Below, piece by piece: positions 16,079 through 19,396 of a DNA stretch of 64,000 nucleotides. Position 1 is the stretch's first letter. Each line of letters opens with the position of its first letter. The position numbers and the translations under genes were made by a program. The DNA comes from Rhodovarius crocodyli (GTDB lineage Bacteria; Pseudomonadota; Alphaproteobacteria; Acetobacterales; Acetobacteraceae). The stretch lies in the NCBI GenBank assembly GCA_945901085.1, contig CAMDJV010000004.1, positions 1 to 64,000 on the forward strand, written 5' to 3'. The notes under the pieces are model-generated. The model was given only the letters and a program-made list of their open reading frames with translations, was not told where the DNA came from and ran no database searches.

Positions 16079-17385
16079 GCCTTTTGTGGCATTTCGCCAC
16101 CTCCGCCGCCGCGCCCTTCATCCCCTTCTGGCTGAAGCGTCGGGCCGGCCGTGGCAAGGAGGAATTGGCCCGGCTGGAGGAGCGCTATGGCCGCAACCCC
16201 AATCGGCCGCCGGGCACGCTGATCTGGCTGCATGGCGCGAGCGTGGGCGAGGGGCTCTCCCTGCTGCCGCTGATCGAGGCGCTGGCCGAGCGGCTGCCCG
16301 AGGCGCATTTCCTGCTCACCACCGGCACGGTCACCTCGGCGCGGCTGACCATGGAGCGCCTGCCCGAGCATCTGCGCGAGAGGGTGCAGCATCGCTATGC
16401 ACCGATTGACGTGCTGGCCTGGGTGGCGCGGTTTCTGGCCGGGTGGAATCCCACCATCGCGATCTTCGCCGAATCCGAACTCTGGCCGAACCGGCTATTG
16501 GCGACCAAGCATGTGCGGGTGCCCATGGCGCTGGTGAATGCGCGCATTTCGTTCAAATCGGCTGAGACCTGGCGGCGCTGGGCGCCGGGGCCAGCGCGGC
16601 GGATGCTGCGCGGCTTCAGGCTGATCCAGCCGCAAAGCACCAATGATGAGTCCAGGCTGCGCGGCTTGGGGGCGCTGGGGATGATGCCCTCGGGCGACCT
16701 CAAGGCCTCGGCGCCGCCGCTGCCGCATGACCCGGCGGCGCTTGAGGCGTTGCGGCATGGCGGAAAGACCTTCGTCGCCGCCAGCACCCATCCTGGCGAG
16801 GAGGTGGTGATTGCCGCCGCCCATGCCTTGCTGGCGGAGCGCCATCCTGGGCTGCGCACCATCATCATCCCCCGCCATCCGGAGCGCGGGGCGGAGGTGG
16901 CGGGGTTGGTTGGCGGCACGCGGCGCTCGCTGGGCGAGGTGCCAGGGCCGCTGCATATTGCCGATACGCTTGGTGAATTGGGCCTGTTCTACCGCCTGGC
17001 CGATGTGGCCCTGGTGGGCGGCAGCCTGGTGCCGCATGGCGGCCAGAATCCGATGGAGCCGGCGAGGCTGGGCTGCCCCATCCTGCTCGGCCCGCATACC
17101 GGCAATTTCCAGGAGCGGGTGCTTGATCTGCGCGAGGCTCAGGCGGTGCGGGTGGTGGAGCCGGGTGATGCGGCGACGCTGGCGGCGGCTGTGCATGATG
17201 TGCTAACCAAGCCCCGCGAGGCCAAGCGGATGGCCGATGCCGCGCATGATGTTGCCCAGAAGGCGACAGGCACGGCGGATCGGCTGGCCGATGAGATCGT
17301 GACATGGTTGCGCCCGGCGGAGTCCTCCCCACAAGGGGGCGAGGTGCGGGCGCCTGAAGCGGAACGGGAACACCAAACGCCTTGA
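16075..17385 (+). CDS. waaA: 3-deoxy-D-manno-octulosonic acid (Kdo) transferase
   Basis: Transfers Kdo from CMP-Kdo to the lipid A precursor at the inner membrane. It is 436 residues, the normal length. The N-terminal membrane-associated region and LIWLHGASVGEGLSLLPLI (conserved glycine/glutamate loop) are followed by TTGTVTSARL, FAESELWPN, the phosphate-binding block FVAASTHPGEEV, and VGGSLVPHGGQNPMEPARLG near the C-terminus. It sits between a DUF374 acyltransferase and lpxK with overlapping ends, a classic lipid A core order. The last 20 residues or so are a charged tail. Confidence 0.93.
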   Translation: MSLLWHFATSAAAPFIPFWLKRRAGRGKEELARLEERYGRNPNRPPGTLIWLHGASVGEGLSLLPLIEALAERLPEAHFLLTTGTVTSARLTMERLPEHLRERVQHRYAPIDVLAWVARFLAGWNPTIAIFAESELWPNRLLATKHVRVPMALVNARISFKSAETWRRWAPGPARRMLRGFRLIQPQSTNDESRLRGLGALGMMPSGDLKASAPPLPHDPAALEALRHGGKTFVAASTHPGEEVVIAAAHALLAERHPGLRTIIIPRHPERGAEVAGLVGGTRRSLGEVPGPLHIADTLGELGLFYRLADVALVGGSLVPHGGQNPMEPARLGCPILLGPHTGNFQERVLDLREAQAVRVVEPGDAATLAAAVHDVLTKPREAKRMADAAHDVAQKATGTADRLADEIVTWLRPAESSPQGGEVRAPEAEREHQTP

Positions 17386-18371
17386 TGCGCGCCCCAGGTT
17401 TCTGGTCGGGCGGTGGGGGAATTTTCCCGCTGCTGCTCTCCCCCATCGCGGCGGTCTATGCCGGCGCGACGGCGCGGCGCATGGCGGCGCCGGGCTGGAA
17501 GGCGCCCATCCCCGTGGTGTGCTGCGGCAATGCCACCGCGGGCGGCGCGGGCAAGACGACCCTCGCCTTGGATATTGGCCGCCGTTTGGCCCGGCGCGGT
17601 GTGGGCGCGCAATTCCTGCTGCGCGGCTATGGCGGTGCCATGAAGGGGCCGGTGCGGGTGGTGGAAACCCTGCACAGCGTGCGAGATGTGGGCGATGAGG
17701 CGCTGTTGCTGGCGCATGAGCGCCCGACCTGGGTTTCGGCCGATCGCGCGGCGGGGGCGCAGGCGGCGGTGGCCGCCCGGGCGCAGGCCATTGTGATGGA
17801 TGATGGGCTGCAAAACCCGACGCTGGAGAAAGACCTCTCGCTGCTGACCATTGATGGCGGCTATGGCTTTGGCAATGGCCGGGTGATCCCCTCGGGGCCG
17901 CTGCGCGAGCCGGTGGCGGCGGCGGCGGCGCGCTGCCATGCTGCGGTGCTGATCGGGCCTGATGAGACGGGCGCGCTGGCCGCCCTGCCCCCTGGCTTGC
18001 GCGTGTTACGGGCAAGGCTAGTGCCGGGGCCTGAGGCGGCGGCGCTGGCCGGGCGGGCGGTGATGGCATTTTGCGGGATCGCCAATCCGCAGAAATTCTT
18101 CGCGACCCTGACGGAGGCTGGCGCCATCCTCGCCGGCCGCGCCCCCTTTGCTGACCATTACCCCTTTGATGAGGGCGATATGGAGACGCTGCTGAAGGAG
18201 GCGGCGAGCCTGCGGGCCATGCCGGTGACGACGCGCAAGGATTTCGTCCGCATTCCCCAGAAATACCGCGAAGCGGTGAGCGTGGTGACGGTGGCGCTGG
18301 AATGGGATGAGAGCAGCCAGATTGAGGAACTGCTAGAACCCCTGGCGCATGGCATGCCGCTGGCGCTGTAA
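17385..18371 (+). CDS. lpxK: Tetraacyldisaccharide 4'-kinase
   Basis: Phosphorylates the 4' position of the lipid A disaccharide at the inner membrane. It is 328 residues. The ATG at 17385 overlaps the waaA TGA; a TTG one codon earlier is possible. The N-terminal hydrophobic anchor and the unusual P-loop CCGNATAGGAGKTTLALDI are visible, as are LLRGYGG, DEALLLA and DDGLQNPTLEKDLSLLTID of the catalytic Asp region. The C-terminal DHYPFDEGDM and TTRKDFVRIP blocks are typical. It is the last gene of this lipid operon. Confidence 0.93.
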   Translation: MRAPGFWSGGGGIFPLLLSPIAAVYAGATARRMAAPGWKAPIPVVCCGNATAGGAGKTTLALDIGRRLARRGVGAQFLLRGYGGAMKGPVRVVETLHSVRDVGDEALLLAHERPTWVSADRAAGAQAAVAARAQAIVMDDGLQNPTLEKDLSLLTIDGGYGFGNGRVIPSGPLREPVAAAAARCHAAVLIGPDETGALAALPPGLRVLRARLVPGPEAAALAGRAVMAFCGIANPQKFFATLTEAGAILAGRAPFADHYPFDEGDMETLLKEAASLRAMPVTTRKDFVRIPQKYREAVSVVTVALEWDESSQIEELLEPLAHGMPLAL

Positions 18372-18479: not shown

Positions 18480-18725
18480 CGCAGGTGATGACCGGCGTGA
18501 GCGTGGCGGTGGCGGCGTTGGAGGGGCTCGGCCTCGTGAGTGCATTGCCGCCCGACCAGGCGCGGATGCGCGCGGCGGCCCTGGGATGCGGCGGTGGCGG
18601 TGGCAGAGGCGGCACCGCTCTCGCTGCGCGCCGCCAAGGCGGCCTTCTTCGAATTGACGCGGCGCGATGGCCCGGCCCATCTGGCACGGGCCGAGAAGCG
18701 CCAGCAGCGCTTTGTGGGGCGCTAG
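18480..18725 (+). pseudogene. Decayed 3' end of an enoyl-CoA hydratase/isomerase gene
   Basis: One frame reads LGLVSALPPDQARMRAAAL. After a shift of frame around 18585 the next reads AEAAPLSLRAAKAAFFE and continues to EKRQQRFVGR before a TAG at 18723-18725. These blocks match the order of the enoyl-CoA hydratase C-terminal half (GLVs-vppd, then APLslraaK, then the EKR-F end). There is no start and no N-terminal crotonase domain, so this is read as a remnant broken by at least one frameshift. The family call is by eye. Confidence 0.4.
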
Positions 18726-18789
18726 CCAGGTGCTGATGGCGGAGCAGAGTAGCGAAAAGGCTTTGCCCTCTCACCCTCTCCCACCAGGT

Positions 18790-19014
18790 TCGACATACAT
18801 GTCGACGATTGTCCTGGACCTTTGAGTATTTAAATCAAAAATCTAACGAAGGTGCAGGAAACTGAGTTTCCTGCTGGGGTGCTCGAGGGGCTAAGCCCCT
18901 CGATCTTGCTTTAGAGCCTGTTCCGTTCGCCTCGGCTCACTGCACAGGCTCTAAGCTTTTGTTTGTCGAGCATCTTTATCCGTTCAAACGATTCCGTTTG
19001 AACGGATGATGCTC
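18790..19014. repeat. Array of five palindromes
   Basis: Five inverted repeats follow one another: TCGACAT-AC-ATGTCGA (18790-18805); a 21-bp palindrome with 10-bp perfect arms and one central base (18854-18874, arms GCAGGAAACT/AGTTTCCTGC); a second of identical geometry (18883-18903, arms TCGAGGGGCT/AGCCCCTCGA); 11-bp arms TTAGAGCCTGT/ACAGGCTCTAA with a 22-nt loop (18911-18954); and a long stem with 13-bp inner arms (18978-18990 with 18995-19007) plus outer GAGCATC/GATGCTC (18968-18974, 19008-19014). They may be extragenic palindromic repeats. The last ones could terminate transcription of either flanking gene. Confidence 0.8.
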
Positions 19015-19060
19015 TAGCGCCCTATTCGTGTCCCAGCGCCGCCCCAGCAGCCCTGGTTTT

Positions 19061-19396
19061 TTAACCGACGCCGAGCAATTCCACCTCAAAAAGCAGCGTC
19101 GCATTGGGCGGAATAACGCCGCCAGCGCCACGCGCGCCATAGCCCAGCTCCGGTGGAATCACGAGGGTGCGGCTGCCGCCCACCTTCATGCCGGCAAAGC
19201 CCTGGTCCCAGCCGCCGATCACCTGGCCCACGCCGAGGGTGAATTCGAAGGGCTGACCGCGATCACGCGAGCTGTCGAACTTCCGGCCCTTATTCTCCGG
19301 TGCCGCGGGGTCATAGAGCCAGCCGGTGTAATGCACGCTGATCTGCTGCCCGGCAGTCGCCTCAGCGCCGGTGCCGATGGTGGTGTCTGTTGTCAT
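19061..19396 (-). CDS. FKBP-type peptidyl-prolyl cis-trans isomerase
   Basis: A minimal 111-residue FKBP domain that speeds proline isomerisation in protein folding. Conserved blocks are [41 protein letters not shown] and [22 protein letters not shown], giving the complete active-site set. It has no signal peptide, so it is cytoplasmic. It is one complete domain with no trigger-factor or SlyD insertion. It is a single-gene unit transcribed away from the MOSC gene and towards the palindrome array. Confidence 0.92.

Follow-up and report, generated by a model that had tools for sequence, protein, structure and literature searches.

A probable nested pair of non-autonomous mobile elements at YTAR sites, between lpxK and an FKBP gene of Rhodovarius crocodyli

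Introduction

Palindromic intergenic repeats of the CIR, RIME and Bru-RS types have been known for decades, to our knowledge with neither a mechanism of movement nor an evident use. RIME1 of rhizobia, said to have been described by Osteras in 1995, reportedly measures 106–109 bp and contains two large palindromes. Bru-RS1 and Bru-RS2 of Brucella are palindromic repeats of 103–106 bp in which IS711 inserts preferentially; the target of IS711 is YTAR, with duplication of TA. The Caulobacter CcrM-associated intergenic repeats, or CIR (Chen and Shapiro 2003, as described in PMC2229807 and PMC10969869), are multi-copy intergenic elements of Alphaproteobacteria, about 110 bp long, with a linker connecting two long inverted-repeat arms, TA termini and GANTC in one of the arm loops. 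Their target duplication is listed as '?', and their mobility mechanism is left open (PMC2229807). ERIC, RUP and Correia/NEMIS are non-autonomous elements of about 100–130 bp that duplicate a TA target; they belong to other phyla or classes and form a single stem in which the 5′ and 3′ parts pair. Insertion sequences of the IS5 family (NF033581) and their MITEs have terminal inverted repeats and a YTAR target.

We analysed a 64,000-nucleotide stretch of the Rhodovarius crocodyli genome, referred to here as the window (contig CAMDJV010000004.1, positions 1 to 64,000). A first-pass annotation had described a series of five palindromes within it, with a mosaic repeat family, an element mobilised by a REP-type transposase, a structured RNA or a nucleoid-protein site as candidate explanations.

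Results

Five inverted repeats in the gap between lpxK and an FKBP gene

All five inverted repeats were present, within 225 bp, where the first-pass annotation had placed them. Palindrome 1 (TCGACAT-AC-ATGTCGA) lies at 18790–18805. The two following it, GCAGGAAACT-G-AGTTTCCTGC at 18854–18874 and TCGAGGGGCT-A-AGCCCCTCGA at 18883–18903, are indeed perfect palindromes of 10-1-10 geometry. Inverted repeat 4 (18911–18954) has arms of 21 nt with 81% complementarity, and inverted repeat 5 (18968–19014) contains the 13-bp inner arms that had been noted for the last stem (18978–18990/18995–19007). Perfect palindromes with arms of at least 10 nt and loops of at most 4 nt numbered three within the 225 bp and six across the whole 64 kb, and 500 dinucleotide shuffles of the stretch yielded none in all; the five inverted repeats are therefore beyond chance. 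The AT-rich setting was borne out by a GC content of 48% in the repeat region versus 66% in the window. The repeat region lies in the gap between the lpxK stop codon (18371) and that of the FKBP gene (19061). The features discussed below are as follows.

17382–18371, plus strand: lpxK, upstream neighbour, transcribed towards the repeats (PF02606, 268 bits; TIGR00682 above cut-off)
18722–18910, plus strand: family A element, main part; left border CTAG at 18722–18725, left terminal inverted repeat partly deleted (copies in the same genome, alignment to the A consensus)
18784–18817, plus strand: A left-arm hairpin, a CCAGG stem around the TCGACAT palindrome (sequence; kept in copies)
18854–18874, plus strand: A right-arm inner hairpin, the first 10-1-10 palindrome (aligned copies, palindrome scan)
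18883–18903, plus strand: A right-arm outer hairpin, the second 10-1-10 palindrome, followed by a weak T-rich tail (aligned copies, palindrome and terminator scans)
18911–19016, plus strand: family B element of CIR type, 106 bp, inserted within the A tail, with TTA...CTA ends and TA duplicated (copies in the same genome, alignments, covariance model)
18911–18954, plus strand: B arm 1, TTAGAGCCTG...CAGGCTCTAA (inverted repeat, covariation, RNA fold)
18955–18967, plus strand: B linker, GCTTTTGTTTGTC (TTTGTTT conserved in many relatives)
18968–19014, plus strand: B arm 2, GAGCATC...GATGCTC, with the 13-bp inner arms (inverted repeat, covariation)
18990–18994, plus strand: GATTC in the arm 2 loop of B, matching the CcrM methylation motif GANTC and its sole occurrence at 18600–19100
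19017–19046, plus strand: remainder of the A tail, pushed aside when B inserted; decayed on the right, border approximate (alignment to the A consensus)
19061–19396, minus strand: FKBP-type peptidyl-prolyl isomerase gene, convergent neighbour (PF00254)

Upstream of the repeats, at 18570–18725, a frame ending at the CTAG that starts A reads PWDAAVAVAEAAPLSLRAAKAAFFELTRRDGPAHLARAEKRQQRFVGR*. By eye it resembles the C-terminus of an enoyl-CoA hydratase, and it is interrupted by stops further upstream; a Pfam search of this putative pseudogene gave no match.

The repeats belong to two dispersed families

A search of the same genome with 18780–19030 (251 bp) as query gave at least 91 matches (40 of 152 candidates scored), which split into query 1–133 and query 132–239, the two parts lying mostly apart. 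Since the palindromes recur, the ideas of an extragenic repeat family and of a non-autonomous mobile element were right. They do not form one series. Palindromes 1–3 belong to one family, A, and inverted repeats 4–5 to an independent one, B; the two are separate at most places and together at few, and a single five-palindrome unit recurring in fixed order was rejected. The palindrome positions given earlier, spanning 18790–19014, were exact as such, and element A extends beyond them on both sides, from 18722 to about 19046.

Aligned copies from the same genome gave an A consensus of about 235 bp, which begins with CTAG-CAGGCTGCTGAAAAACG and ends with the inverse, CGTTTTTCAGCAGCCTG-CTAG; the terminal inverted repeats are about 20 bp long (YTAG-CAGGCTGCTGAAAAACG). 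Each half contains one GGGCTTTGCCC-type hairpin and one CCAGG/CCTGG hairpin around an AT-rich centre, so that A as a whole forms one large, imperfect inverted repeat. Loops of these hairpins occur in two forms, one of them with the palindrome TCGACATRTATGTCGA, which are exchangeable between the arms, and the hairpin at 18883–18903 mirrors the degenerate GGCTTTGCC hairpin close to the left terminus. In the same genome the A-end sequence had 46 matches with up to two mismatches, versus one for a reversed control. Neither an open reading frame nor a transposase gene is present inside the approximately 235-bp A, and the copy in the window has damaged ends. Short forms of about 100–130 bp were found at L043, L044, L049 and L052; the one at L052 (2767–2867) is a nearly perfect palindrome of about 100 bp, formed by two A ends back to back. 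A search of a plasmid collection with the A consensus gave no match. Beside A copies at L051 (3000–3190) and L053 (3100–3180) lies a dispersed-looking hairpin, CTAGAGCCGTTTCACCGTC...GGTGAAATGGCTCTA, possibly another CIR-like subtype.

Family A shares its ends with IS5-family elements

The terminal inverted repeats of A are common to five insertion sequences in relatives, L084, L093, L099, L123 and L125. The L084 element, 1.33 kb long and bounded by CAGGCYGCTGAAAAAC ends, contains a single open reading frame of 388 amino acids whose product carries the Pfam domains DUF772 and DDE_Tnp_1 and scores 263 bits against the IS5-family model NF033581 (cut-off 140). At L099, from another taxonomic family, CTAG stands outside both A-type ends, and in Azospirillum brasilense (WP_137141134.1) and Skermanella mucosa genes for IS5-family transposases lie between ends of YTAR-CAGG type. 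By their sequences, the elements with A-type ends are thus members of the IS5 family. The motif TAGCAGGCTGCTGAAAAA was present exactly in 20 of 200 genomes of the same taxonomic family as Rhodovarius, often close to contig ends. A shares with IS5-family elements and their MITEs the terminal inverted repeats and the YTAR target, and its full-length relatives encode DUF772 and DDE_Tnp_1; it differs in keeping the ends only, and its interior consists of extra palindromes absent from the ends of the insertion sequences. The best reading of A is that of an orphan MITE, a non-autonomous derivative of an IS5-family element.

The assembly of the Rhodovarius genome (91 contigs, 97% complete) gave no match to the L084-type transposase and a single weak IS5-type match, at a contig end. 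As the partner transposase is absent from the assembled genome, movement of A here would lie in the past or have been driven from outside. An old MITE family does not require a partner transposase in the same genome.

Family B has the description of a CIR-type repeat

Family B is 106 bp long and reads TTAGAGCCTG..CAGGCTCTAA, linker GCTTTTGTTTGTC, GAGCATC..GATGCTCTA. A covariance model detected 51 copies in the same genome at E ≤ 1.4e-7. It also scored significantly in 14 of 143 further alphaproteobacterial genomes, with up to 20 matches per genome; in these relatives the architecture is kept and the stems differ. The exact core pattern of B was found in records of Roseomonas, Neoroseomonas, Roseicella, Nguyenibacter, Azospirillum and Ensifer, the Ensifer form also on plasmids of Sinorhizobium, NGR234 and Rhizobium. 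To judge from these matches, B has relatives across the Alphaproteobacteria, rhizobia included. The B consensus gave one partial match in the plasmid collection. Among distinct copies in the same genome, 32 of 51 have TTA or CTA at the left terminus and 27 of 51 have CTA at the right; the window copy has both.

Base pairing in B is conserved. In the covariation test, 16 of 29 pairs were changed on both sides, with 55 double-change cells versus 15.3 after shuffling (reached in 0 of 500 shuffles). Copies from the same genome alone gave 15 of 29 pairs and 37 double-change cells versus 15.0 (0 of 500); that alignment was fitted to the structure, and the 16-pair test therefore carries more weight. 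The RNA fold of B has z = −9.5. Covariation of this kind does not separate RNA from DNA structure. No Rfam family was above the gathering threshold. Two weak sub-threshold matches to BASRCI27 (RF02600), a Brucella sRNA, lie at 18949–19024 of the window and at L180 1439–1613, minus strand, in two independent B-type copies; the BASRCI27 family may itself be derived from a CIR or Bru-RS repeat.

B fits the published description of CIR (PMC2229807): it agrees with it in length, arms and linker (106 bp), TA termini, loop GANTC, intergenic position and a host with CcrM. The CcrM homologue of the host (L312, 691–1806; E = 6.5e-146 to PDB 6pbd, CcrM) has a detectable RAMA domain; among the control genomes Caulobacter was the sole positive. 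B differs from CIR in the TA duplication and YTAR targeting seen here, and in that about half of the copies in this genome have no GANTC. The motif is kept in 57% of 51 distinct copies and ranks 72nd of 102 five-base windows; special conservation of GANTC in B was not seen. Compared by description, the Bru-RS repeats share with B their size and palindromic build, the BASRCI27 matches being the sole hint at the level of sequence. RIME1 shares size and two palindromes and, with B-type elements present in Ensifer and on the rhizobial plasmids, is likely a relative of B from its description; at the RIME1 type locality, chvI–chvG, no element lay between the genes in the one species inspected (Ensifer sesbaniae). 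ERIC, RUP and Correia/NEMIS resemble B in length and TA duplication, but B has two arms and a linker where these have one stem, and their sequences are unrelated.

A search of the same genome for the left-end pattern returned mostly known B copies; surveyed as a set, the matches revealed no long or autonomous element with B ends. At the B-type borders of L204, L250, L203 and L258, AAGACAAGC/GCTTGTYTTAT takes the place of the usual TAGAGC and may be where a different element ends.

Nested copies reveal the target site

When B and one TA are removed from the window, the remaining sequence (...GATCTTGCTTTAGCGCCCTATTCGT...) aligns without gaps to the A consensus at the join. L003 and L021 are further cases of B inside A, likewise restored, at CTAG. 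The reverse nesting was found at L060, where a short A has entered a B copy at the arm 1 end, a CTAA-like sequence, in parallel to IS711 within Bru-RS. In the same genome CTAG, TTAG or CTAA adjoins 25 of the 63 A ends. A and B thus both insert at YTAR. From the paralogous comparison inside A, B appears to duplicate TA on insertion. An orthologous empty site beside the FKBP gene was sought in the genus; the gene order differs, and only FKBP aligns.

Element borders coincide with stop codons

For stop-codon and gene-orientation counts, genes were called by length and GC3−GC2 only. Among coding-like open reading frames entering B from either side, 21 ends stop at offset 0/1 and at most two at any other offset. 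A stop codon lies exactly at the border in 20 of 50 B copies of this genome, on both sides in two of them. In other genomes the same holds for 13 of 74 copies, at offset 0/1 versus at most two elsewhere. For A, a stop lies at the border, at −3, in 10 of 63 ends, with at most two at other offsets. Element borders therefore coincide with stop codons. The neighbouring genes are convergent at 20 of 30 B copies, in tandem at 10 and divergent at none; by these crude gene calls none of the 30 lies inside a coding-like open reading frame. The window contains 44 YTAR sites, 27 of them coding, 5 at coding stops and 12 elsewhere; coding stops thus make up 5 of the 17 YTAR sites outside coding sequence (29%).

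Discussion

Two dispersed families, their nesting and their YTAR borders are observed directly, and it is very probable that 18722 to about 19046 consists of two non-autonomous mobile elements, one nested in the other, and came about in two steps. A family A MITE of about 235 bp would have inserted at a CTAG, moved in trans, probably by an IS5-family transposase recognising CAGGCTGCTGAAAAAC ends and targeting YTAR; that an IS5-type enzyme moves A is what we infer from its ends. Later, a TTAG in the A tail would have received B, which duplicated TA and was presumably moved by some YTAR-specific transposase. Both families would settle at YTAR sites where no harm is done, and selection against gene damage would leave stop-codon sites.

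Other explanations were weighed against this one. An array of REP sequences of the REPIN/BIME type mobilised by RAYT would likewise be multi-copy, extragenic and palindromic, and A can be seen, like a REPIN, as two palindromic half-units in inverted orientation that flank an AT-rich core. However, A has YTAR borders and terminal inverted repeats of about 20 bp identical to the ends of an IS5-family DDE transposase element, neither A nor B has a 20–40 bp palindrome with a GTAG or CGTC tag, and CGTC REPs have been reported missing from the Acetobacteraceae; the link to a REP-type transposase was not supported, and we regard this reading as barely credible. It is scarcely less improbable that B is a CcrM-linked regulatory DNA site with the exposed GANTC as the point of the element: the window copy carries the motif in its loop and the host encodes CcrM, but the motif is no better kept than the rest of B. 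Nothing was found in favour of a nucleoid-protein site.

A structured RNA or bidirectional terminator at the 3′ ends of the lpxK-side and FKBP transcripts, for which the repeats would be kept, has more to commend it and is still unlikely. The strong fold and the covariation of B, the sites at gene ends and between convergent genes, the T-rich linker after B arm 1 conserved in many relatives and one terminator-like site (18883–18903) all point towards it. The same covariation is nevertheless expected from the palindromic DNA of a transposable element, Rfam offered no family above threshold, and the terminator scan found 2 sites versus 0.9 expected. Nesting, TA duplication and dispersal would be left unexplained, and the earlier view that there is more here than local terminators holds for a dispersed, nested family. 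A terminator effect of B arm 1 with its T-rich linker, or of 18883–18903, is possible and may be secondary. A and B are most likely selfish non-autonomous elements, tolerated for landing at gene ends.

The coincidence with stop codons may explain how A and B spread without breaking genes. YTAR is rare at 66% GC and its harmless occurrences are often TAG or TAA stops, and the elements are therefore found at gene ends, mostly between convergent genes. Pure YTAR targeting followed by loss of harmful insertions, with no property of the element required, is the explanation towards which we lean somewhat: stops make up 29% of the non-coding YTAR sites in the window, a share near the 40% seen for B copies with a stop at the border, so that the rarity of YTAR and the loss of harmful insertions may suffice. 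Against it, the first base of B after TA is G whichever strand is read, and B so rebuilds TAG for a gene on either side, preserving the stop whatever the original, a base for which pure targeting has no need. We tentatively consider, with rather more doubt than confidence, that CIR-type elements are transposable elements adapted to stop codons through YTAR targeting, TA duplication and a terminal G on both strands, which would turn any TAA or TAG at the insertion site into TAG for each of two convergent genes. The present counts cannot separate pure targeting from stops preserved by the element. If the adaptation is real, it supplies the mobility mechanism missing for the CIR class described in 2003, the transposase excepted.

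The kinds of element involved, an IS5-derived MITE and a CIR-type repeat, are already known. TA duplication by a CIR-type element, placement at stop codons and mutual nesting look new; a search of the literature on MITE insertion in stop codons and on CIR mobility found nothing on point beyond reviews. The nested copies provide a natural before-and-after comparison in which TA duplication at YTAR can be read. The match between borders and stop codons offers a simple, testable reason why, in GC-rich genomes, repeats of this type are confined to intergenic sequence and gather where genes converge. It also carries a warning for annotation, in that many genes of these genomes owe their last codon to a mobile element.
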